A stretch of DNA of 15,092 bases from a bacterium (GTDB lineage: Bacteria; Planctomycetota; Phycisphaerae; Phycisphaerales; UBA1924), in assembly GCA_002401225.1 (NCBI GenBank), contig NVSM01000009.1, positions 51,124 through 66,215 of the forward strand, read 5' to 3'. The notes under the pieces are model-generated. The model ran no database searches. It was not told the DNA's origin and saw only the letters and a list, made by a program, of their open reading frames with translations. Every line of letters begins with the position of its first letter. Within the stretch, counting starts at the first letter, position 1. Both the position numbers and the translations under genes were made by a program. Shown one piece after another: positions 217 through 14,829 of the stretch.

Positions 217-3200
217 TCACACCTGCCCGCCCACACCCTTAAACTTTTCAACAAATGCAGCTATTTTCTGAAACACGCTCTGCTTCTTAGTCAAGTACTG
301 CGGATTCAAAGGGCTCATTTTGGGTAAGATTGAGTTGAGTTCGGTGCCATTCTCGCTGGCGAACTCGCGTTTGAGTGATGTTGTGATGTAACGCTTGGTC
401 GCTTCGGCGTTCAGCTTCTCGGTGCGAATAAGTTCCTCCGCTTCACGCTTCTGCTCGGCTTGGGCAAATGTGAAGAAAGCGTCAATCACACTTGCCTTGT
501 CGCTGATCTGATCAAGATCGGTCTGGTTAATGAAATCGACCAGTAGGCTCTCCTTGGCTCGATTGCCGATGCTCGAACGGATCACTCGTCGCACATCGTC
601 GACCAACATCGACTTGTCTTTGACCTTAGTATTGTTCTCGAAAATCAACTCAAGGATGTAATCGAGGTTGATCTCCTGAGATTTCAGCAAGTCGACTTCA
701 AAAACGACATCGTCCCAGTCAATCGTAGATTGCGCTGTTTCCTCGGCTGCCTTCTCACGCCGCAGCCAGTCTCGGATGTCGTTGTATGTGGATCGATAAT
801 CTTGGATGGCCCGCTCAGCCGGGACCTGAATGGCCTGTAGGTCCTTGATATCTTCATCATCTAAGTAATGCATAGCCTTGAATGCCTCAACGGCGTCGTT
901 GTCATTCAAGTCGACATTCTGCAGTGATTTGAGGGATGCGAACTCATCATAATTCTGAAGTACATTTTCAACCTTCAGATATTCGCCAAACAGTTTGACG
1001 AACTCTTTCTTCTCGGCTTCAGTTTCGATCTCTGAAGGCTCAGGGAAACGCCGTTCAAGTTCGGAAACCACATCGATATAACCACGCCTTGCCTCACCAG
1101 TAGCGATGTCGGTGAAGCCTTCCATGTACTCTTTGTAGCTTTTCTCCAGTACGACATTTCTGGTGTTTGAGTCTCCGAAAAGCGTGATCGAATCAATCGT
1201 TGCCTTTTCCAAATCTCTAAATGTGACAATATTACCGAAGGTCTTCGTGGCGTCGTAGATGCGGTTTGTTCTTGAATACGCTTGCATCAATCCGTGGTAG
1301 CGAAGAGTCTTGTCAACAAACAGCGTATTGAGCGTTGGTGCGTCAAATCCGGTCAAGAACATACCTACCACGATCAGGAGGTCAATTTCCTGATTCTTCA
1401 CTCGCTTTGCTAGGTCACGGTAGTAGTTCTGAAAGCCATTGCTATCGACGCCAAAGCTAGTCTTGAATAGAGCGTTGTAATCGGCAATAGCGGCGTCAAG
1501 AAACTCCTTGGCCGATTTATCCATAGCCGACACATCAAAGCTCTCGTCGAGAATCTCACCGATTGCGTTCTGCTCTTCATTCGCTGCAAATGAGAAGATG
1601 GTCGCTGTCTTCAAGGGCTTTTCTGCATTATTCTGAAGCTGCTTGAATGCTTCATAATAACACTTGGCGGCATTGACACTACTGACAGCAAACATGGCAT
1701 TGAAGCCTTTGTTGCCACCTTGGGTTCGATGTGTTTTCTTCCTGAAGTTGTTCAAGATGTACTGGGTGACTTCGTTGATACGGTCGGGGTGCAACAGGGC
1801 TTTTTTGTTCTCCGCGGCGCTTAGTTTCTTCTCGTCCTGCTCACTTTCTATAGCCTTGAACTTTGGGCGCACATCGTTGTAATCCACTTTGAACTTCAGC
1901 ACCTTCTCATCACGGATGGCGTCCGTGATGACATACGAGTGCAACTCAATACCAAAGACTCCCTTAGTGGTCTCGGAACCGCTAGCGTTCTCAGTAAAGA
2001 TGGGCGTGCCAGTAAATCCAAACTGGTAATACCGTTTGAACTTCTTCTTCAAGTTCTTCTGGGCCTCGCCAAATTGGCTGCGGTGGCATTCATCGAAAAT
2101 GAATACAACCTGTTGCTGGTAGACGGGGAGTTCAGCCTCCCCCTTCATCAGGTTGTTAAGTTTCTGGATCGTCGTGACGATGATCTTGTTGTCGTCTTTA
2201 TTCAGATTCTGCTTGAGTGCTGCGGTGTTGTTTGAGCCATTGACGCTGTCAGGAGAAAAACGCTGGTATTCCTTCATTGTCTGGTAGTCGAGATCTTTTC
2301 GATCCACGACAAAGAACACCTTGTCAATGAAATCGAGCTCTGTTGCAAGACGCGCCGCCTTAAAACTGGTCAGCGTCTTGCCCGACCCGGTGGTGTGCCA
2401 GATGTAGCCGCCCCCTTCGGGCTTGCTCCAAGTCTTGGCTTGATAGGAACTCGCTATCTTCCAGATGATCCGTTCGCTCGCCGCTATCTGGTACGGTCGC
2501 ATCACGAGCAGCGTATCGCTGACATCGAAGACCGAATACTTCAGAAGCACTTCCAAGAGCGTTTTCTTCTGGAAGAAGGTGGCCGTAAAATCCTTCAGAT
2601 CCTTGATCAGCCCATTGTTGGCCTTTGCCCAATGCATGGTGAAATCAAAGCTGTTCTTGTTGCGTTGGGTCGTATTTGCAAAGTAGCGGGTGTCGGTCCC
2701 GTTTGAAATTACGAAGAGCTGGAGGTACTTAAAGAGCGAGTGCTCGCTGTTGAAACTCTCTTTGCTGTAGCGATGAACCTGATTAAACGCCTCGCGGATG
2801 GCGACGCCGCGTCTCTTGAGCTCCACTTGCACCAGTGGCAGACCGTTCACCAAGATGGTCACATCATACCGGTTGGCGTGCGTGCCCGCCTGCTCAAACT
2901 GCGAGATCACCTGCACCTTATTGCGAGCGGTGTTCTTCTTGTAGACCAGATAGATATTTTGGATGTGTCCGTCATCAAAGACAAAGTCGTAAATGTAGTC
3001 ATCGTGAATCTTGCGGGTTCTATCGACAATGGAATCGCTCGGTTTGTCGAGGTAGGACTCAACGAAGCGACTCCATTCGTCGTCGGTGAACTGCATGTTG
3101 TTCAGTGCTTGCAGCTGCACACGCAAATTGGCGAGCATCGCTTCTGGCGTCTTGATGTCGGCGGCGAACTCGTAGCCTTGATTCTGCAGGTCTCGGATCA

Positions 3201-3318
3201 GCTCTTGCTCAAGGTCGTTCTCGCTCTGGTAGGTCTCGGCAGAGTCAGTCTCTCCGGTGTACTTATCCAAAATAATGAAGTTTTTGGACTCGGCAATAGG
3301 TTTCGTGCAGTTAGTCAT
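217..3318 (-). CDS. hsdR: Type I restriction enzyme, R (motor/endonuclease) subunit HsdR
   Basis: This 1033-aa protein is the ATP-driven DNA translocase and nuclease subunit of a type I restriction complex; it pulls DNA past the bound methyltransferase core and cuts at a distance. The N-terminal PD-(D/E)xK nuclease is visible as D152, E166 and K168, followed by a QxxxY motif at Q180-Y184. Superfamily 2 helicase motifs follow: Walker A GSGKT at 311-315, DECH at 409-412, FTGTP at 435-439, and a motif VI-like QAYSRTNRI later. Length and residue spacing match EcoR124I HsdR (about 1038 aa; D151/E165/K167 as I recall it), placing it in the type IC family. It is the last gene of the minus-strand operon, 17 bases after the PrrC-like gene. 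The start at 3318 is supported by AGAGG seven bases upstream. No frameshift or missing catalytic residue was seen. Confidence 0.96.
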
Positions 3319-3334: not shown

Positions 3335-4516
3335 TTACTCCGCCTTCATTTTCATGCGATACATCTCATCCAGATTCCTGACGAGGAAGCCTAGGGTTCG
3401 TTTGTGGTCGTCTTTAACTTCGGTGATCTCCTCGCTAGAGTGCTTGGAGTGGCTGTACAAATTGATCATTCGTGCATAAGGGTTTTCTTGCTCGCCGTTG
3501 CTCTCTGGCAAAAGGTCTCCCCATTTTTCGTAGCCAACAAATGTGGATGTTTTTTCGAGTAGGTTTCGGAGGAAATTGAAATGATATTTCTTGATATCTC
3601 CGGTCTCCACTGCTCTTTCTAGCTCTTCCTTTATGAACAAGTGGTAGGCGAATGGGGAATCGTTTTTCTGAGTACGAAGGTCGTATTCGCCATTCTCGTC
3701 TTTGGCAAGCATGAATTTTTTTGCTTTGTTCAGCTCGTTAAAAAGCACATTGTAAAACAGAGGGTTGTGGGTTGAAATGATAAACTTGATGCCTTCTTTG
3801 CTGTCGGGATCGAAATTGCTTCCTTTGATCAGCGCCGCTAAATCGATAGCCAGTTGAATCAGGTGGTTTTCATCCAGTGAGCTGACAGGGTCATCGATGA
3901 AGATGTATTCGAGATCATCAAAATCATGGGTCTCCCGGTCGCCAGGGTTGGCGACATTGAGCACGCCGATGACTTCCTCAAGTACGGCGTAGAAGATGCT
4001 CCAGATGAAGTTGCTTTCTTCGCCTTTGGAGATTTTGATGTTGTCGGTTTGCTGGTCGTCTCCGCGCTCAAATGAGAATGTGACTTCGGAGAATGCGGGA
4101 ATGATCCGCTCCTTACCGTCCACATCTTTGACGGAGTAAGGTTCGTTGAATCGCGGCGTCAGCTTGTCGTTTGTGTACCGTTGGAAATGGCCGATTGCAT
4201 TTCGGTCTTGCCCTTGCTCTTCGAGTACCCATTGAGTGTATGTGTTTCGCTGGATGAGTAGCTTTCTCTCTGTGTCACCTTCAAGGTCATTGTCCCAATA
4301 GAACAGGTCTTCGGTGAAGGCGTTGTAGTAGAGGATCTTGCTGCGGGCGGGTTGATCGTCGTCTTGGTCGTCCGCGTCGGGTTGCTTCGGGGCGACCAGA
4401 TCCTTGAACTCACGCGATAGCCGGGTCTTGCCGGAGCCGTTGAAGGCGTAGATCAGCTGGACCTTCTTGTTGTTGTCCTTGAGCTGCTGGGCGATCTCGG
4501 CGAGGGTATTACTCAT
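3335..4516 (-). CDS. PrrC-like ABC/AAA ATPase, candidate anticodon nuclease
   Basis: This 393-aa protein has an ABC-type ATPase body: Walker A FNGSGKT at 25-31, a signature-like SKGEESN at 163-169, Walker B plus D-loop [12 protein letters not shown] at 204-215, and a switch histidine in STHNP at 248-252. The DDPVSSLD form is typical of the AAA_13 group, which includes PrrC and RloC. The C-terminal part has R317-x3-E321 (in LRNLLE) and histidines H356 and H359. EcoprrI PrrC is about 396 aa with a catalytic triad Arg320-Glu324-His356, so spacing agrees closely. It starts one base after the hsdS stop and precedes hsdR, the same M-S-C-R order as E. coli prr. In that system the nuclease is held silent by the restriction complex and cuts a tRNA anticodon loop when a phage disables it. 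Inference: a similar second-line guard here. Alternative: a related hsd-linked ATPase (RloA-like) without RNase activity. Confidence 0.75.
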
Positions 4517-4517
4517 C

Positions 4518-5777
4518 TTAGGCCACCGCCTCTTCAGCCCGAGGGAAGGTCAGCAGTTGATCGCGGTAGTACTCGTACTGCTTCCGCCGAGCGTTGATCT
4601 CGGCGGGCAGGCCGTCGGTCAGGTCGTTTGCCAGAGCCTCGAACTTGTCGAGGATGGAGACGATACGGGCTTGTTCAGCAAGTGACTTTTGGGGGTCGTC
4701 TGGGTACGGGACGGGTATTCGGATCTTGCCTAGGTTTGAAGACGAAATACGGTTGACTTTGGCACGAGCAACATACTTTCGTTTTGCGGTATGGAATGCT
4801 GCGATCTGAAAGCAGTATGACGCATATTTGGGATTCAGCGAATGCCGGAAAGCACAGCTGTCATCATGAATCGCAACTTTTTCAGTACCGAGCCATGCAA
4901 CGGCCTTGCCAACATCCTCAACAGTTTCGCCAACACCCGCAATCACAAGATCCCCCGGCTCTGCATATTGCAGCGAAGATGCCATATCCGAACGCACAAA
5001 CGAAACTGTTGAAGTTGCAGAACTTCCATAGTGGGTGTAAATTTCGCCGTAATGAATACAGGGAATGCCGTCTGTTGTGTAATCTTTCTTGGTGAAGCGG
5101 CGGCCACGGATAAAATGACCAATCTCATCAAGCGCTTTCCACCCAATATTTAACTTTTTGCTGCGGTCCCCATCGTCAGAGACTAGGAGCGCTTCGCGGT
5201 AGTATTGGTACTGCTGACGACGCGCTTTCAGCTCCGCTTCCAGCTCCGCTTCCAGCTCCGCTTCCAGCGTAGTGAAATTGTCGAGAATCCGAACGATCTC
5301 TGCTTGGACGGCTAACGATTTCATTTTGTCATCTGGGCAAGGGATTGGGATCTTTTTATGGCAGTACTTGCTAATCCATTGCCGTTTATGGTCGCCTTCA
5401 ATTAATTCGCTTGGCAGCGTGTTTAGCCAGTAATAAATATACTTACTGAGAACCTTGGTCTCATCTGCCGAAGTGATCATTTTCATAGCCGAGGACTTGG
5501 CCTTAAAATCAAAATCCACCCACTTGTTAGCAGTTGTGAAATCATCAAAAATTATCACAGGGCTCTTGGATGCATTGTATATTCCATGGGTCTCGTTTGT
5601 GTATCCCAAAACAAATGTCTTCCCTGCGGTTAAAACCGGTGTTTCCCAATCGTCGTTGTAGTTTTTCGATTTAACGAGGTACTGTGTTGGCTGTTCATAT
5701 TGCGATACTTGTCCAAGTGGTAGCCAATCAACATCAGACCCATCCAACAACTTGTCTATAAATAGAGAGTTGCTCAT
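4518..5777 (-). CDS. hsdS: Type I restriction-modification specificity subunit HsdS
   Basis: This 419-aa protein chooses the bipartite DNA target for both methylation and restriction. Two target-recognition domains are seen, roughly residues 15-150 and 215-360, each followed by a similar conserved helical region: [15 protein letters not shown] ... YQYYREALL at 154-198, and [15 protein letters not shown] ... YEYYRDQLL at 365-409. TRD2 has the [11 protein letters not shown] motif common in type IC HsdS. Residues 171-182 are three exact LEAE units, encoded by three identical 12-base repeats, inside the central spacer. It overlaps hsdM by four bases (ATGA), with a GGAGG ribosome site inside the hsdM end, and its stop is one base from the next start. 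The exact target sequence cannot be read from the protein. Confidence 0.95.
5230..5265 (-). repeat. Three perfect 12-bp tandem repeats in the hsdS spacer
   Basis: The 12-base unit AGCTCCGCTTCC (plus strand) occurs three times without a mismatch at 5230-5241, 5242-5253 and 5254-5265, and a partial AGC follows. On the coding strand each unit gives one LEAE block of the helix joining the two recognition domains. Gain or loss of a unit keeps the frame and changes the helix by four residues. In EcoR124I and EcoR124II, two versus three TAEL units change the spacer of the recognition site by one base pair. Confidence 0.93.
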
Positions 5778-7351
5778 GCCTCCGCCCCTTCGAGTTCTGC
5801 AACAATGGAATCGATCTCCGTCCGAAGCTCGATCTGCCGCTTGACGATCCCTTTGATCTTGGCGTTGAGTTCCGTGATGTCGATTACTTCACGCGTGTCC
5901 TTGGGTTCGACATAGCTGCTCACCGATAGGTTGTACTCATTGGCAGCGATATCCTCGAAACTGACCGACAACGCGAAATGGTCGGTGTCGGCTTTGGTAT
6001 CAAAGGCCTCCATGATCTTCTGGATGTGCCCTGGGTTTTCTGGGTCGTCATTATCGACCAGAACATTGTTGTTGGTCTCTTTCTTGAATAACCCGCTGGC
6101 GTCGATGAACTGGGTGGCGGTGTCGGTTTTGTGTTTGGAGAGCACAAGGATGTTCACGGAAATGGTGGTGCCGAAGAACAGATTGGGTGCGAGTGAGATC
6201 ACGGTCTCGACGAAGTTGTTATCAATGAGGAACTTGCGGATCTTCTGTTCTGCTCCACCTCGGTAGAAGATGCCGGGGAAGCAGACGATGGCGGCTCGTC
6301 CCTTGCTGGAGAGATAGCTGAGGGCATGTAGGACGAAGGCGAAGTCTGCTTTGGATTTGGGGGCGAGCACACCGGCGGGGGCGAAGCGATCGTCGTTGAT
6401 AAGGGTTGGGTCGTCCGAGCCGACCCACTTCACGGAGTAAGGCGGATTGGAGACTATGGCATCGAAGGGTTTGTCGCTGCCGAAGTGCGGATTAAGCAGT
6501 GTGTTGCCGAGCTTGATATTGAACTTGTCATAGTTGATGTTGTGCAAGAACATGTTCATGCGGGCGAGGTTGTAGGTCGTGTGGTTGATCTCCTGGCCGA
6601 AGAAGCCTTCTTCGATGATGTGGTTGTCAAAGTGTTTTTTGGCTTGCAGGAGCAACGAGCCAGACCCGGCTGCGGGGTCGTAGATTTTGTTGACGCTGGT
6701 CTGCTTGTGCATGGCGATTTGTGCAATCAGCCTTGAGACACTTTGCGGAGTGAAGAACTCGCCGCCGGATTTACCGGCGTTGGCGGCGTAGTTGGAGATG
6801 AGGAACTCGTAGGCGTCGCCGAAAAGATCGATCTGGCTGTTGCTGTGGAAATCGCCGAAGTCAAGCCCGCCAACGCCTTTGAGCACGGCTGCCAGACGGG
6901 TGTTCTTGTCGGCAACGGTGTGGCCGAGACGATTACTGGTGGTATCGAAGTCCGCGAAGAGGCCTTTGATATCATCTTCGGAGGCGTAGCCGTTGGCGGA
7001 GCTTTCGATGGCGGTGAAGATGGCGGCAAGGTCGGTGTTCAGGCTCTCATTGTCGTTGGCGGATTGGACGACATTGACGAAGAGCTGGCTGGGAGAAATG
7101 AAATAGCCCTTGGTTTTGACGGCGTCCTCTCTGATTTCGGGGGTGATGACGGAATCATCGAGCTCGGCATAATGAACGCTCTCGTCGTCGGCTTCGATGT
7201 AGCTGGCGAAGTTCTCGCTGATGAAACGATAGAACAAAGCACCAAGAACATACTGTTTGAAGTCCCATCCATCGATGGCACCGCGGACATCATTAGCGAT
7301 CCGCCAGATGGCTTTGTGTAGCTCGTCGCGTTGTGCGTTGTTGTTGCTCAT
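5774..7351 (-). CDS. hsdM: Type I DNA N6-adenine methyltransferase subunit HsdM
   Basis: This 525-aa protein is the modification subunit, transferring a methyl group from S-adenosylmethionine to adenine in the target chosen by HsdS. The N-terminal helical HsdM domain (about 1-165) is followed by the catalytic domain. It has [13 protein letters not shown] at 196-208, the AdoMet-binding motif DPAAGSGS at 225-232, and the catalytic NPPY at 302-305. Length matches the IC family (about 520 aa). It is the first gene of the operon, and its stop overlaps the hsdS start by four bases. The ATG at 7351 has only a weak purine-rich AAGAGA upstream. No defect was seen, so the operon should protect its own DNA. 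Confidence 0.96.
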
Positions 7352-8222: not shown

Positions 8223-8529
8223 CGCCGAATCAATCTATCGGTTCTGAGAAAGCTCGGCTCTTGTCCGACTAATGCTTTCTCTAACAAAGGCCATTGTACT
8301 GGAAACGAGATACACCTGCTAATGAAAAAATGGCCGGTCCATAAAAGACGAATTTTCGATTCTGAGATTCTGTATGGGACCCACAAGGCGTAATGGGGGG
8401 TATGCCAGGCCTACCCCTGCGAAGAAAGATGGGTGCTCTCGAAGTCGGTTTTCAGAGCATTCATTCACCGATTCACGCTGCTTGTTGATGACTTGTGAAA
8501 GCAAACAAACACATCTCAAGGAGCAAGTC
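8223..8529. other. Divergent intergenic region upstream of the amidoligase
   Basis: About 300 bases separate the minus-strand HTH gene from the plus-strand amidoligase, so promoters for both should lie here, but no box is clear enough to call. A dyad GGGGTA (8397-8402) / TACCCC (8412-8417) with a nine-base loop could be an operator or leader hairpin. The coding frame is open upstream of the chosen amidoligase start, yet this extension lacks a ribosome site. Confidence 0.4.
8518..8523 (+). promoter_or_regulatory. Ribosome binding site deciding the amidoligase start
   Basis: AAGGAG six bases before the ATG at 8530. It favours this start over the in-frame codons upstream at 8374 and near 8488. 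Confidence 0.75.
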
Positions 8530-9486
8530 ATGCTGGTATCAGAGTTGAATAGAAATCGTCGTATTGGCACAGAGTTCGAATTTGTATTACCACAGATTGG
8601 AACCGGTACTGGCGATGATGTTCGTCGTACTTTGGCTGAGGTCTTGACGGCAAATGGTCTACCCACGGTTGCACGAAGTTACAGCCATCGTCCTGTGCCA
8701 GCCGGAGCAGTATTGGCGGTAGAGTATGATGGATCAGTTAGAGGCGAGAGTCGCTATCGGGGGATCAAGTGGCAGAGCGTCGAGCTCAAGACAAAGATTC
8801 TGTCAGGTATCGATGAATGGGAATCCATTGTTCCTAAAGCATTGAAGATCTGCAAATATTTGGGCGGACGAGTCAATATCAGCACAGGTCATCATGTTCA
8901 CATCTCGATGCCTGAAGTCAAAGAGAGTCCAACAGCATTCCGGTCGCTCTACAACACCATCCATCGATTCGAGCCATTGATCTATGGATTGGTTGCTGAG
9001 AGTCGTCGTACCGGCCATTATGCAAGACCGATGCTCGACCAGCCGGCATTGCTCAATGGATGTAAGACTCTGTCTGCGATGAGTACCGCATTGGCAAGGC
9101 ATCCAAGAACGAACGGTTTTAATGTCATCCATCTCTTCGATTCAGATCCTCGATGGGAGTCGAGGTATCATGGCGGTACGCTTGATCCAATCAAAGCTAG
9201 ACACTGGTTACGATTCATGCTCCGCATCAGCGACCATTCCACGATGAGAGTTTGCAAGGCTGCGAAATCGCAGCATCCAAACAATCGAGAATCCATCGAC
9301 AAGATGCTGGTCACTTTGGGCCTCAAGGTAAACTCAAGGGTTTACGCTCAAGTGTCACCAGAAATGAGAGACACAGGAAAGTTCCTTCTCCGTCGCTGGA
9401 AAGAACTCAACGGAGATCAAGAGCACTCTTTGAGTCGTAGTCGTCGAGTATCAGAGACAATCGAACCTGCTGCAATGGCTTGTTAA
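8530..9486 (+). CDS. Amidoligase-family enzyme (Amidoligase_2-like)
   Basis: This 318-aa protein matches the putative amidoligase family of glutamine synthetase-like fold, which is predicted to form amide bonds in small peptides, metabolites or proteins using ATP. Visible family marks are IGTEFEF at 12-18 (E15, E17), EYDGS at 65-69, VELKT at 84-88, the histidine motif STGHHVHI at 118-125, ESRR at 157-160, and ESRYHGGTLDP at 210-220. These acidic, histidine and arginine positions fit metal and ATP binding. It stands alone, with a strong ribosome site before it and a terminator just after, upstream of the RuvB-like gene. I see no partner glutaminase or peptide-precursor gene. The substrate is unknown. 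The family call rests on motifs, and activity is inferred. Confidence 0.82.
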   Translation: MLVSELNRNRRIGTEFEFVLPQIGTGTGDDVRRTLAEVLTANGLPTVARSYSHRPVPAGAVLAVEYDGSVRGESRYRGIKWQSVELKTKILSGIDEWESIVPKALKICKYLGGRVNISTGHHVHISMPEVKESPTAFRSLYNTIHRFEPLIYGLVAESRRTGHYARPMLDQPALLNGCKTLSAMSTALARHPRTNGFNVIHLFDSDPRWESRYHGGTLDPIKARHWLRFMLRISDHSTMRVCKAAKSQHPNNRESIDKMLVTLGLKVNSRVYAQVSPEMRDTGKFLLRRWKELNGDQEHSLSRSRRVSETIEPAAMAC

Positions 9487-9729: not shown

Positions 9730-9827
9730 TCAGTTTCTTGATCGTCCTGGTTTGATTTGTGGTCGTTCCAGGCGTGTGGTGTGTTTGTCAGCTATTCACC
9801 GAAAAGTGAAAGGCTCTGATGATGGAT

Positions 9828-9833
9828 AAGGAG
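9828..9833 (+). promoter_or_regulatory. Ribosome binding site deciding the RuvB-like start
   Basis: AAGGAG six bases before the ATG at 9840. It lies downstream of the in-frame ATGs at 9819 and 9822, so it argues for the later start. Confidence 0.75.
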
Positions 9834-9839
9834 ATCATC

Positions 9840-10832
9840 ATGACGAATACAAATCAGTCAAGCCAAACAATCCCGCCCACTCTCGATCATGTGATTGGAC
9901 AACAGAAAGTCGTTGCCAAACTCAAGGTCGCCGTTGAATCGAGTTTTTTCGATGGTGAAGTTCCATTACCCCACATACTACTAACCGGGCCTCCAGGAAC
10001 AGGCAAGACGATGCTCAGCAAAGTACTTTCAAAAGAGATGGCCTCAGAATTTTACGAGATACTTGGACAAACAATTGTTTCCCCGCAAGCTCTCAACGGA
10101 TTTCTGATGAGCCCTGAATCGGCCAACTCAATCCTTTTTATTGACGAATGCCATGAGATGTCACCATGGATACAAACCGCTTTGTATAAAGCGATAGAGG
10201 AGGGCTGTGTGTTCCTTGCCAACGAAATGCAGCAGAAAGTGCAGAAGCTCAAACTACAACCGTTTACGCTCATTCTTGCTACGACAGACCCTCAACGATT
10301 ACTCCAACCCCTTCGAGATCGCATCAAGCTGAACTGTCAGCTTCGGAGGTATACCAGCGAGGATATTCAACTCATTCTCCGCCAGAAAATACGTCAGATT
10401 GGATGGGAGGTAGAGGATGAAGTTCTCGAACAGATAGCCAATCGTTCCTTCGGTACTCCTCGACTCGCTCTTCGTTTGATGGATTCAGTGCGTCGCACAG
10501 CGAGATCATTGGGTGAAACGAATCTGACTATTCAACATGCGAACCAAACATTTGAGATCGAAGAAATGGACAGCATTGGCTTGAGCAGCGATGAGACTCA
10601 GTATTTGTCAATCTTGAGCGATTCAGTGCGTCCCATGAGGCTTGGAGTCATTGCTTCAAGGATGGGTCTACCCATAGAGGCGGTCGCAAAAGTTGTGGAA
10701 TCGAATCTGATTTGGCTCGGGTATGTTGATCGATCCGAGCAAGGGAGATCATTGACCGTTTCTGGTCTTGAGCATATTCAGAATCAGAGATCAGTATCGA
10801 GTGATCAGCAAAGAGATGGGGGTCAGCAATGA
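9840..10832 (+). CDS. RuvB-like AAA+ ATPase (Holliday junction branch-migration motor family)
   Basis: This 330-aa protein has RuvB architecture and nearly RuvB length. It has LDHVIGQQKVV at 15-25, Walker A GPPGTGKT at 50-57, Walker B LFIDECHEM at 99-107, sensor 1 ATTD at 147-150, an arginine finger region PLRDRI at 158-163, sensor 2 GTPRLALRL at 205-213, and a C-terminal winged helix ending in GYVDRSEQGRSLT. Bacterial RuvB is a hexameric ring that drives branch migration with RuvA. No ruvA or ruvC is nearby, and the gene sits between HTH and recombinase genes, so it is probably an element-borne paralogue and not the housekeeping copy. Its stop overlaps the next start by four bases (ATGA). 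The start at 9840 is set by AAGGAG. Its role could be DNA processing during element transfer or replication. Confidence 0.85.
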   Translation: MTNTNQSSQTIPPTLDHVIGQQKVVAKLKVAVESSFFDGEVPLPHILLTGPPGTGKTMLSKVLSKEMASEFYEILGQTIVSPQALNGFLMSPESANSILFIDECHEMSPWIQTALYKAIEEGCVFLANEMQQKVQKLKLQPFTLILATTDPQRLLQPLRDRIKLNCQLRRYTSEDIQLILRQKIRQIGWEVEDEVLEQIANRSFGTPRLALRLMDSVRRTARSLGETNLTIQHANQTFEIEEMDSIGLSSDETQYLSILSDSVRPMRLGVIASRMGLPIEAVAKVVESNLIWLGYVDRSEQGRSLTVSGLEHIQNQRSVSSDQQRDGGQQ

Positions 10833-11317
10833 GTCGTACAAGATTTACATTCGATCCATCTAGGCAGGTAGCTTTGACTGTCAGCGACATGGCGAGAGCA
10901 GTCGGACTCAGTAGGTCAAGGTTCTACTCGTTGGTGCAGCAAGGAGTGTTTCCTATGCCCTTGTATCTGATATCAACCAAACGGCCATTCTTTGATGAGC
11001 GGCTTCGAGATCAATGTCTTGAAGTGCGTCGAACAAGTCTTGGAATCAACAATCAACCAACTCTGTTTTACCCTCGGAGAGCCGGTTTGCCAACAACTCG
11101 TTCGAGTAAATCATCTTCTCGCCGAAAAAAGAAAACTCCCGCTATGAATCCGAGAGTGTTGAGGCTCACTGAGTTACTCAAGGGACTCGGAGTTGAGAGT
11201 CCGTCGCCTCAAGCGGTGGCGTCAGCCATCAAGGAATGCTTCCCAAACGGTGCTGAGGAGATGGAGGATCATGAGCTCGTTGGAGCCGTCTTCCGCCGCT
11301 TAAGACAGTCTTCATGA
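10829..11317 (+). CDS. Helix-turn-helix protein coupled to the RuvB-like gene
   Basis: This 162-aa protein overlaps the RuvB-like stop by four bases, so the two are probably translated together. Residues 15-40 (VALTVSDMARAVGLSRSRFY, then SLVQQGVFPMP) form a helix-turn-helix of the AlpA/excisionase (HTH_17) type. A basic serine-rich linker follows (about 90-105). The C-terminal 60 residues are acidic and helical and have no family I recognise. It probably binds DNA as a regulator of the element or as a recombination directionality factor. It is longer than a typical excisionase. Confidence 0.72.
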   Translation: MSRTRFTFDPSRQVALTVSDMARAVGLSRSRFYSLVQQGVFPMPLYLISTKRPFFDERLRDQCLEVRRTSLGINNQPTLFYPRRAGLPTTRSSKSSSRRKKKTPAMNPRVLRLTELLKGLGVESPSPQAVASAIKECFPNGAEEMEDHELVGAVFRRLRQSS

Positions 11318-11352: not shown

Positions 11353-11428
11353 GGTAACTCTGTTCAATGTCTGTGTTCTTTCCGTTCTCTTTCTGTCCAC
11401 AAGTCTGTCCTTTATCACCACATAATGC

Positions 11429-11434
11429 TTGGAG
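11429..11434 (+). promoter_or_regulatory. Ribosome binding site of the tyrosine recombinase
   Basis: TTGGAG seven bases before the ATG at 11442. It supports that start over the in-frame ATG at 11367. Confidence 0.55.
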
Positions 11435-11441
11435 TAATGCC

Positions 11442-12317
11442 ATGTCTAATTCCGAAACTAGCCTGATCGAAAACTTCTTGAGCGTGAACGACTTCTCTGA
11501 TCACACAATCAAAGCCATCACTCATGACTATCAGAAATGGGTCGGATGGTTTGAGCGTGCCAATGAAGAGGAGTACGAGAGTCGCCGAGTTACCATTCGA
11601 GATGTAACTGATTTCAGAAAGCATCTTCGAGAAGAACGAGGTCAAGCTGTTGCGACGGTCAATCGCTGCCTCGTCACACTTCGTCGTTACTTTCAATTTC
11701 TCGCAGAAAAAGAAGTGATCGAAACAAATCCTGCCAAAGGCGTCAAAGAACTGCGCCGGACGCCAACCGCACCCAAGGCAATAGAGCGATCAGCAGTCAG
11801 GCGACTCCTACGAGAAGCAACAGTCAGAGAAGATCATCGAGCGTCAGCCATTCTTGGGCTGTTTGTATATTGCGGTCTGAGAATCAGCGAGGTATCAGCT
11901 TTGAAGCTTGGAGACATCGATCTCACAGAGCGTCGTGGATCGCTTGTGGTGCGTCATGGCAAACACAACAAGGAACGCATCGTACCAGTTCCTATCGAGG
12001 CACGACGAATGCTTGTGAGCTACCTGCATGGAAGGCCGCCAGCAGATACTGATTGCATTTTCGTGGGACGAGGTCTCAAGCCTTTGGGCATTGATGGAGT
12101 CAGGTACACGGTCCGGAAGTATGGAGTTGCGATAGGGATTGATCTACATCCACACGCTCTTCGCCATACTTTTGCGACTCAGTACTTAGAGGCCAACAAC
12201 AACGATATCGTCGGTTTGGCTCAAATCCTCGGGCACGAATCAATCCAGACAACATCACGATACACCCAACGAGGCGAGTCGCAGCTCTCAGAGGCTAGCG
12301 AGATGGTGACATTTTGA
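11442..12317 (+). CDS. Tyrosine recombinase / integrase (XerC/D-like)
   Basis: This 291-aa protein is a site-specific recombinase of the phage-integrase family. The N-terminal core-binding (SAM-like) domain is about residues 5-95. The catalytic domain carries the full active site: R147 in CGLRISE, K174 in RHGKHNKER, H238 and R241 in HPHALRHTF, H265 in LGHESIQTTSRYTQ, and nucleophile Y274. Length and motifs are XerC/D-like. The gene shares four bases with the small membrane-protein frame downstream (TTGA). It is the likely integrase of the element that holds the amidoligase, RuvB-like and HTH genes. The start is chosen by TTGGAG. Dimer resolution of a plasmid-like form is an alternative role. 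Confidence 0.92.
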   Translation: MSNSETSLIENFLSVNDFSDHTIKAITHDYQKWVGWFERANEEEYESRRVTIRDVTDFRKHLREERGQAVATVNRCLVTLRRYFQFLAEKEVIETNPAKGVKELRRTPTAPKAIERSAVRRLLREATVREDHRASAILGLFVYCGLRISEVSALKLGDIDLTERRGSLVVRHGKHNKERIVPVPIEARRMLVSYLHGRPPADTDCIFVGRGLKPLGIDGVRYTVRKYGVAIGIDLHPHALRHTFATQYLEANNNDIVGLAQILGHESIQTTSRYTQRGESQLSEASEMVTF

Positions 12318-12942: not shown

Positions 12943-13299
12943 GGCGATTCATCGGTCTTGAGAACTCCAAGTTCAAACGAGCGATGATCGTCGCCATACT
13001 TCCATTTCGTCGAGAGCTGGCGATTGCAAACTGCGGTACACGTACAAATTTCTGCGGAAAGATGAAAATGCTCCCTGTATATAGACTGAAATAAATGGTT
13101 CAGATTTCTGCGTGTTTGACGGAGGGATCAATCTTGTATTTGTCGAACTGAATAGGTGCGGGTTGCTTCAAACGCTTCTGATCTCCCTGCAAATCTACCT
13201 CGCCTTGGTTGAAAGACCTTGGCGAGTGTTTCAGTTCAACAAGATCATGAACCAGATTTAGATTATCTGATTCAAATACAAACAGAGATCGGAAGCAAA
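12943..13299. other. Upstream region of the primase-like gene, with dyads
   Basis: About 330 bases with no clear gene. CTCGCC (13199-13204) and GGCGAG (13221-13226) form a stem with CCTTGG repeated in it. GTTGAA (13208-13213) and TTCAAC (13235-13240) form an overlapping dyad. CAGAT (13253-13257) and ATCTG (13265-13269) form a third close to the start. These could be operators or an origin-like region for the replication protein. No iterons are clear. Confidence 0.45.
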
Positions 13300-14829
13300 A
13301 TGTCTAAAAACAAAATAGTCCATAAGTGGAATGGGAAAGTTACGGATAACAACAAATGGTATCGGGATCCATCTGATCCTCGATATTTCTCAGGCGAAGC
13401 AATGGAGGAGAGAGTCAGGCTAAAGAAGATTTCGGATCAAATACGACAAACCAAAAAATTGAATGCGATAACCAAAGCCAAAGTCCATGCGGCCCTTGGA
13501 GATCAAACTGGAGAGCTTGTTGAGGCAATCATGAGTCATGTCAGCGGCTTTGATTATGGACTCGGGCTCCCTACTCATGTCAACTACAGGGGTATCCATT
13601 TTCCTAGAAAGCTCAGGAAGAGCGATATCTACAATCATCTCGCTGGAGATACAAGGCTCTACTACACGACCAATCCATTGCTGAACGGATTTCATATCGA
13701 ATGCATGGTGACTGTTGATCTCGACAATCCAAATCATGTTTCCAACTCTGAATCAAATGTCGCTCTTCAAGCGAAAGATCAGCTCGTATCAGATCTCAAA
13801 AAATTGGGACTCTACCCAATCGCTCAGGTCAGCTCCAATGGCAACGGGTTTCATGTGACCTTCTGTATTTCATTTCTCTCTGGCCGAGTTGATTCTGCGA
13901 TCAGAGATCTATTGAATCAGCTCAGGTCTGCCATCAGTTCCTTTTACGAGTCTTACTCCTGTCAAGAGATATGCCTTAAAGGTACAAATTACAGTCGAAT
14001 TGGTTATCAACCTGCTCTTTATGGAACTCTAGTCAAACTGCCAACGATAAATGATCCTGAGATGTCGTATGAGTTTTTAACCATGATCTCTTCTCCTATT
14101 CCTTTCTCCAAGATCATTTCGTATTACTCTCCAACACCAGCTGATTCATCCATTGAAGGGGTGGAAGAAAGAACAAACTTATATAGTTGGGGGGACAAAT
14201 GCCAATTGTCTCCAATTTCAAGGAAGAAGAAAAGGAAGAAATACGGGAAGAAGACAGGGATGAAGTCGAAGGGAAAACAATGGGGAACTTCAGCGATTGC
14301 AAGGATGAGAAGAGCTGCAACAATGTTCTGTCATGAGAATAAACGATTGCCTGGATCAGTTGGTGAACTAGTCCATTTCTACGAATCAGAGAGTTTGCAC
14401 ACAGGCACCGCAAAGCCAAACAGAGAGAAGAATGCAGAGATTGCTCTTGAATGGATAACGACAAACCATAACTTCACACCGCCGTCAGAGCAGTCGCTGT
14501 ATGACAAATGGTTCAAGCATTTCGAGTCGAAGGAATACGCGAAGGAGAGAATGACCTATACCACAGGTCGCTTCATTCGCCCATGCCATCTTGCCCTGGT
14601 CGCTGCAGTTATTGAGCACAAACAACTGAACAAGCACATGCGGGGCATTGCGAAGAACTACTTTATTCAGATTTCTCGGGAAAAGAAAAAACGGGGAGAG
14701 ATTGGGTTTGTCCTCGACAATAAGAAGTTCGCCCATTGCATTCCGATGTTGGTCGATGAACAAATTGTTGAGATATCAATGCCATCAACAATGCGAGAAG
14801 GAACGAAGTATCGGATTCACTGCATATAA
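13300..14829 (+). CDS. Archaeo-eukaryotic primase-like replication protein
   Basis: This 509-aa protein shows the motif order of archaeo-eukaryotic-type primases. Motif I is VTVDLDN at 137-143 (D140, D142), motif II SSNGNGFHV at 178-186 (H185), and a motif III-like QEICLK at about 222-227, followed by YGTLVKLP at 241-248, which resembles the conserved G..xRLP segment. Such enzymes make primers for plasmid, phage or mobile-element replication. No helicase domain is fused. A strongly basic stretch (about 308-326, RKKKRKKYGKKTG) precedes a C-terminal region with helical and winged-helix-like parts, perhaps DNA binding. The start at 13300 is preceded by GGAAG at five bases. A TTG at 13219 would add 27 residues that overlap the upstream dyads. 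Family assignment rests on motifs. Alternatives are a replication initiator or another nucleic-acid enzyme of the same fold. Confidence 0.65.
   Translation: MSKNKIVHKWNGKVTDNNKWYRDPSDPRYFSGEAMEERVRLKKISDQIRQTKKLNAITKAKVHAALGDQTGELVEAIMSHVSGFDYGLGLPTHVNYRGIHFPRKLRKSDIYNHLAGDTRLYYTTNPLLNGFHIECMVTVDLDNPNHVSNSESNVALQAKDQLVSDLKKLGLYPIAQVSSNGNGFHVTFCISFLSGRVDSAIRDLLNQLRSAISSFYESYSCQEICLKGTNYSRIGYQPALYGTLVKLPTINDPEMSYEFLTMISSPIPFSKIISYYSPTPADSSIEGVEERTNLYSWGDKCQLSPISRKKKRKKYGKKTGMKSKGKQWGTSAIARMRRAATMFCHENKRLPGSVGELVHFYESESLHTGTAKPNREKNAEIALEWITTNHNFTPPSEQSLYDKWFKHFESKEYAKERMTYTTGRFIRPCHLALVAAVIEHKQLNKHMRGIAKNYFIQISREKKKRGEIGFVLDNKKFAHCIPMLVDEQIVEISMPSTMREGTKYRIHCI

Follow-up and report, generated by a model that had tools for sequence, protein, structure and literature searches.

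We conclude with high confidence that a 15,092-nucleotide stretch of Phycisphaerales DNA (the window) carries a type IC operon with a PrrC-family anticodon nuclease encoded between hsdS and hsdR, most likely working as a guard silenced by the HsdMSR complex. Gene content and order, intact frames, motifs, the catalytic triad, homology, and a mosaic ancestry of the protein come from the sequences themselves; latency, control by Stp and nucleotides, and the cleavage chemistry are taken over by analogy from published work on E. coli PrrC.

Gene content of the operon and its surroundings

The initial annotation proposed that a 393-amino-acid open reading frame in this stretch encodes a PrrC-like protein in the gene order of EcoprrI, hsdM-hsdS-X-hsdR. 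This frame is real, with an ATG start and no internal stop on the minus strand, and the flanking genes are intact, lie on the same strand, and match TIGR00497, Methylase_S, TIGR00348, and EcoR124_C (Table 1). The PADLOC PrrC model (E value, 1e-145) and an alignment with E. coli loci bear out the reading as a PrrC orthologue in a type IC operon. The genes are tightly packed: hsdM and hsdS overlap by 4 bases, and the spacings are 1 base from hsdS to prrC and 16 bases from prrC to hsdR. HsdR contains D152...E-x-K, GSGKT at 311, and DECH at 409. The type IC characters found are an EcoR124-like HsdR C terminus (EcoR124_C, 1.6e-70) and TAEL-like spacer repeats in HsdS; judged by sequence, the operon is a complete type IC restriction-modification system. 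HsdM and HsdR are each 78% identical to E. coli prrC-linked subunits.

TABLE 1 Features of the operon and of the PrrC protein (window coordinates; residues are those of PrrC)
Feature	Position	Strand	Description
hsdM	5774..7351	-	Type I DNA methyltransferase subunit, 525 aa; TIGR00497 642.8 bits; motifs DPAAGSG, NPPY
hsdS	4518..5777	-	Specificity subunit, 419 aa; matches Methylase_S
12-bp tandem repeat in hsdS	5223..5268	-	Encodes (EAEL)x3; counterpart of type IC HsdS TAEL spacer repeats
prrC	3335..4516	-	393 aa, ATG start; anticodon-nuclease orthologue by homology
N-terminal ABC-ATPase module	3728..4516	-	Residues 1-263; Rad50/SMC-head-like in predicted model
Walker A AFNGSGKT	4424..4447	-	Residues 24-31; G29, K30, T31 in 320/320 homologues
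ABC signature KISKGEES	4013..4036	-	Residues 161-168; E166 in 320/320
Walker B + D-loop	3872..3907	-	Residues 204-215; D208, D209, S213, D215 in 320/320
Module junction	3725..3739	-	Residues 260-264; 18/25 breakpoint estimates
C-terminal nuclease module, window type	3338..3727	-	Residues 264-393; mostly helical in model
Putative tRNA-recognition loop NDSPFAYH	3641..3664	-	Residues 285-292
Predicted catalytic R317-x3-E321	3554..3568	-	320/320 homologues; align to E. coli Arg320/Glu324
R349-x6-H356, predicted catalytic His 356	3449..3472	-	H356 320/320; R349 316/320
hsdR	217..3318	-	Restriction subunit, 1033 aa; TIGR00348 680.6 bits; EcoR124_C 238.1 bits

The repeat in hsdS has relatives in most of its homologues, which carry one to three LTAEL- or LTTEL-like copies; among 82 hsdS frames, counting that of the window, 34 contain LTAELTAEL, 14 have a third copy, and 9 have no such repeat. 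The recognition sites of EcoR124I and EcoR124II have a gap whose length depends on the TAEL number, 6 bp with two copies and 7 bp with three (PMC3874165). Because the window HsdS has three EAEL copies, this relation predicts a 7-bp recognition gap, and the 12-bp repeat is likely to be a slippage site setting the gap in the recognition sequence.

The arrangement is widely shared. EcoPrrC of EcoprrI, read via 396-aa RefSeq proteins (e.g., WP_097331719.1), resembles the window protein in gene order, size, and 1-base gap, and all three E. coli prrC loci examined have this order and this hsdS-prrC gap. A set of 83 loci was compared, made up of the 80 best among 456 genome-contig relatives plus the 3 from E. 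coli; 77 show hsdM-hsdS-prrC-hsdR in the same order and orientation, which fits the published view that PrrC always accompanies type IC systems (PMC2610378). Five loci have no detected hsdM and one has neither hsdM nor hsdS; the contig starts there in five of these six, the exception being L038. Some loci leave room for further genes inside the operon, as L002, L007, and L018 do between prrC and hsdR. Yokenella L003 and Desulfurivibrionaceae L011 have the same operon arrangement as the window.

A different order is suggested by the gene list of PrrC170 from Klebsiella quasipneumoniae, hsdR-hsdS-prrC-hsdM (PMC11555353). Like the window protein, PrrC170 is a PrrC accompanied by a type I system; its divergence from the E. 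coli protein is far greater (35% identity). The same suggested order also surrounds a distant PrrC (L120/L156), where hsdS was named by eye. This PrrC belongs to genome G100 (L119, L120, and L156), from the same phylum as the window, which has a close prrC with hsdM, hsdS, and hsdR in EcoprrI order and, in addition, this distant one, at 29% identity to the E. coli protein and flanked by hsdR on its upstream and hsdM on its downstream side.

That the host lies outside the Enterobacteria, as first supposed, agrees with a neighboring HerA-like ATPase whose nearest named proteins are from Phycisphaerales (at most 78% identity; the closest protein overall is at 94%). Among sampled relatives of the host, prrC occurs in 1 of 61 genomes, the window's own, and across the phylum in 2 of 392, the window's own counted. 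Phage genome records gave no match to the window PrrC at an E value of ≤1e-5; the PHROGs family phrog_23661 matches it at 5e-171. In a plasmid collection, 113 records contain a PrrC relative of <60% identity, 71 of them from Klebsiella; in the Klebsiella plasmid entries listed, the match is split in two pieces, which are two hypothetical proteins where annotated. Two prrC operons on E. coli plasmids (L086 and L088) lie beside a late-promoter activator and phd/doc, with a terminase as well in L086, and we take these surroundings to resemble those of P1-like phage-plasmids.

Neighbors of the operon on the contig include genes for a Fic protein, two integrase-family genes, a ParB/methyltransferase protein, and a SMODS protein, and the surroundings look like a defense island. 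Given these island-like neighbors and the rarity of prrC, we infer horizontal acquisition. The Fic/DOC-family gene, which has a DUF4172 domain (L084:9983-11107), lies just outside the window beyond the hsdR end; PrrC/RloC-like genes have previously been found with Fic/Doc genes (PMC3710099). The CD-NTase-like gene (SMODS, DncV-like; L085:13761-14945) lies some 13 kb away from hsdM on this contig, with an integrase-family gene nearby (L085:12835-13407). Within the window, an Amidoligase_2-family protein (8374-9486) is encoded beyond hsdM on the opposite strand. Genes for a RuvB-like AAA protein below the NCBIfam RuvB cutoffs (9819-10832), a small protein weakly matched to the excisionase family (10829-11317), and a tyrosine recombinase that resembles XerC and scores under its cutoff (11367-12317) run in one direction and possibly form a mobile-element module. 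A 536-aa protein (13219-14829) has no Pfam, NCBIfam, or PHROGs match at an E value of ≤1e-3. RNA-family searches of the window returned nothing over the gathering score, and it contains no tRNA gene.

Rarity among host relatives could also fit a prrC that is inactive or decayed and retained purely as a structural part of the operon, perhaps a recent acquisition without long selection. The intact frame, the ATPase motifs and catalytic residues, and the intact hsdM, hsdS, and hsdR argue against such decay, which we consider very improbable.

Family and motifs of the PrrC protein

The window PrrC is an ordinary member of the known PrrC family. In the profile search that had been proposed as a check, the PADLOC PrrC model covers residues 3-391 with 483.5 bits, against 54.1 bits for the runner-up PADLOC model. 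The protein also matches Pfam AAA_13, has at least 8,000 homologues at an E value of ≤1e-3, and shares 50% identity over a 406-column alignment with an E. coli "anticodon nuclease" of 396 aa. An NCBIfam search gave a chance match only, far below the cutoff. Among solved structures, a single-sequence search returned chance matches only (E values of 0.2 or worse) and a profile search none at an E value of ≤0.1. Fold matches listed for the whole-protein model are Rad50/SMC-head-like over approximately residues 1-289; the ATPase part filled this listing, and no HEPN match appeared in it.

The ABC-type ATPase motifs first noted (Walker A, signature, Walker B/D-loop, and the H-motif, His 250) are present in the translation, as are R317, E321, H356, and H359. 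The initial annotation was to be abandoned if the C-terminal region aligned with non-nuclease AAA_13 proteins and if R317, E321, and H356 varied among close homologues; instead, E. coli proteins that carry an anticodon-nuclease annotation align to this region, and all three residues occur in each of 320 aligned homologues. H356 aligns to E. coli position 356, and D286, present in 318 of the 320, aligns to E. coli D287; roles of D287, Arg320, and Glu324 have been described for E. coli PrrC (PMC3014915). PrrC has been assigned to the HEPN superfamily (PMC3710099), and R349-x6-H356 fits the HEPN Rx4-6H motif by sequence. A medium-confidence model predicts helices in the nuclease module at 289-305, 310-327, 346-355, and 369-380. 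A block at residues 60-77, strongly conserved across the 320 homologues, is probably the 15-residue PrrC box.

Like EcoPrrC, the window protein has the ATPase motifs, the catalytic triad, and the D286/D287 aspartate. It differs in lacking the 16-residue N-terminal insert (73 of 84 proteins have no insert there), in a segment at 124-142 that is longer by 15 residues, and in a recognition loop that is 2 residues shorter and contains a proline. An acidic stretch near residues 45-57, initially thought unusual, proved ordinary: 44 of 84 aligned proteins, the window's counted, are at least as net-negative there.

Could the protein be a RloC-like wobble-excising tRNase instead of a PrrC? Some homologues have source names reading "wobble nucleotide-excising tRNase," and RloC likewise joins an ABC ATPase to the same kind of nuclease domain (PMC2610378 and PMC3710099). 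RloC, however, is built with a zinc hook and a coiled coil, cuts out the wobble base, and seldom occurs together with type I systems (PMC2610378), whereas the window gene sits in a type IC operon. Its 393-aa translation contains no cysteine, so the CXXC zinc hook is absent, and the gap between the two PADLOC scores again points to PrrC. We regard a RloC identity as extremely improbable.

Two nuclease types and module ancestry

Identity to E. coli PrrC is unevenly distributed over the window protein, at 65% in the ATPase part (residues 1-265; the N module) and 38% in the nuclease part (266-390; the C module). Across 320 proteins, the recognition loop has 8 residues in 188 (xDSPFxYH and variants; window type) and 10 residues in 132 (GDSNKSFSYH and variants; E. 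coli type). His 359, initially put forward beside the catalytic residues, is thus not a family constant: position 359 is H in 182 of 188 window-type proteins and L in 131 of 132 of the E. coli type. The residue matching D286 is present in 188/188 window-type proteins. Mean identity between the types, from random samples of 60 + 60, is 69.7% for the N module and 43.1% for the C module, and mean N-module identity within the window type is 71.1% in the same samples; these means rest on a type assignment that misplaces 3 of the 320 proteins. Proteins of the E. coli type were collected mainly through likeness to the E. coli nuclease part and the other set through likeness to the window, and the 188:132 ratio and within-type identities are therefore biased; 3 of 120 proteins from the E. 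coli-type search, being shorter than 340 aa, were left out.

The PrrCs of Yokenella L003, Desulfurivibrionaceae L011, P0002 (88% identical to the window PrrC), and Klebsiella P0098 share the window's nuclease type, and such proteins differ from it, as far as compared, by sequence divergence only. In lists of 120 proteins each, several of the E. coli type are named "anticodon nuclease," while the NCBI names of window-type proteins are "AAA family ATPase" or similar, and the window type seems under-recognized in databases. When aligned by eye, the distant PrrC of L120 has the 8-residue stretch DDTPFFHH at the loop, a hint that the shorter form may have come first.

Trees of the two modules give different histories. 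With the marker columns left out, the type label changes once on the C-module tree of 320 proteins and 9 times on the N-module tree (shuffled mean, about 101 for both); the 84 locus proteins alone give 1 and 4 changes, respectively. Forcing the E. coli type into one group on the N module was rejected (AU P = 0.0017; lnL, 235 lower), as was forcing the window's N-module group of seven into one on the C module (P = 0.0006; lnL, 87 lower), in tests on 36 chosen proteins with groups named after the trees had been seen. That group, with an SH-aLRT of 97 in an N-module tree of 64 proteins, unites the window, P0002, P0003, P0024, and L006, all of window type, with P0019 and P0060, both of E. coli type. 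P0019, whose source name is Phycisphaeraceae, is 81% identical to the window protein in the N module and 41% in the C module.

The switch from similar to dissimilar sequence falls mostly close to the domain border. Of the 132 E. coli-type proteins, 25 have a window-type relative whose N module is ≥80% identical; the best single breakpoint falls within 260-264 for 18 of these, within 257-259 for 3, and within 225-233 for 4. The most frequent position coincides with the nuclease border near residue 265 published for E. coli PrrC (PMC3014915), the numbering of the two proteins being offset there by a few residues. The pattern is unlikely to stem from metagenome chimeras, since the 25 include loci of named strains, of Yersinia (L066), Legionella (L081), Steroidobacter (L061), and Methylobacter (L068).

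The ATPase module follows the restriction genes more closely than the nuclease module does. Over 70 loci, distances in the N module correlate with those of HsdM (r = 0.69) and HsdR (r = 0.74), compared with 0.18 and 0.33 for the C module. The type label (9 of the 70 are E. coli type) changes 7 times on the HsdM tree, 6 times on the HsdR tree, and once on the whole-PrrC tree, which is led by the nuclease part. The raw correlation of PrrC is higher with HsdR (0.64) than with HsdM (0.53), which may merely reflect that prrC adjoins hsdR. The 9 label changes are no count of events because the ATPase tree is only modestly resolved: its starred branches by themselves require just 2 changes in the 64-protein N-module tree, and the two halves of the ATPase module, which correlate at only 0.39, give 18 and 9 changes individually. 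Within the window type, the ATPase-nuclease correlation is 0.46-0.53 and that between the ATPase halves 0.42; exchange is therefore visible between the types, not within them.

Together, these comparisons make it probable that the two nuclease types have been exchanged behind a common ATPase module, more than once; the data do not support unrestricted swapping among all PrrC tips. No statement on module exchange in PrrC was found in the literature consulted, although one may have been published.

Proposed working and candidate tRNA target

By analogy with E. coli PrrC, HsdMSR would keep the window PrrC silent until a phage anti-restriction factor disables the complex on unmodified DNA. Binding and hydrolysis of nucleotide by the Rad50-like ATPase module would then release the helical (HEPN-type) nuclease module, and R317, E321, and H356 would cut tRNA in the anticodon loop. 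Translation would stop, and the infected cell would die or stall ahead of phage spread. That the window protein behaves in the same way, with tRNA-Lys(UUU) as target and a corresponding trigger, is inferred from this likeness.

The host assembly is incomplete (2.59 Mb; 61% complete). It encodes tRNA-Lys(UUU), with the anticodon loop CUUUUAA, and tRNA-Lys(CUU), and tRNA-Lys(UUU) is thus available to the window PrrC as a substrate. MnmA and MnmG are present; MnmC had no match over the cutoff in this 61% complete genome, and the wobble base of the host tRNA-Lys may for this reason differ from that of E. coli. Two candidate explanations were set aside: the presence of MnmC as a cause of the two types showed no clear association (6/10 E. 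coli-type versus 18/40 window-type hosts, G000 counted), and the GC-rich anticodon stem of the host tRNA-Lys (UCGGC/GCCGC) is no special reason, since such stems also occur in other PrrC hosts (e.g., GCGGA in G450 and G474).

The early caution that the target tRNA was unknown was apt given the low identity of the nuclease part to the E. coli type; the window module being of another type, the E. coli target is not simply transferable, and we found no cleavage mapping for a window-type module in the literature consulted. An orthologue that, through its shorter loop, aims not at tRNA-Lys(UUU) but at another tRNA or a tRNA-Lys with different modifications would account for the contrast between the two modules in identity to E. 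coli PrrC, for the loop NDSPFAYH (8 aa) in place of GDSNKSFSYH (10 aa), and for H in place of L at 359. Only some PrrC proteins, moreover, have the E. coli recognition region, and with the sequence of that region the substrates may vary as well (PMC3014915). Against this, the counterpart of the wobble-contacting E. coli D287 is retained throughout the window type, and MnmC does not follow type. PrrC170, far more distant, is still reported to strike tRNA-Lys: together with its hsd genes it acted on T1 and T7, and sequencing of tRNA indicated that it targets tRNA-Lys (PMC11555353). The PrrCs of Haemophilus influenzae and Streptococcus mutans, whichever nuclease type they carry, have similar activity, reported as unpublished (PMC2610378). 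We consider a different target unlikely. The D286 equivalent, invariant in the window type, and the report on PrrC170 favor tRNA-Lys, which is our best guess for the target of the window PrrC.

These observations place a probable EcoprrI-order guard in the Phycisphaerales. The detailed specificity work that we found concerns E. coli PrrC, one nuclease type, while the window protein and 188 of the 320 proteins, in sets biased by how they were gathered, carry the other. The apparent exchange of the types raises the testable question of whether both tips cut the same tRNA. We tentatively entertain, at less than even odds, a scheme in which the ATPase module evolves with the restriction enzyme, the tip is swapped as a cassette at 260-264 among two or more ancient types, and the window tip, which is not that of the E. 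coli prototype, recognizes another tRNA or a differently modified tRNA-Lys. If this is true, phages would be unable to escape all PrrC guards by means of one tRNA or one repair route.
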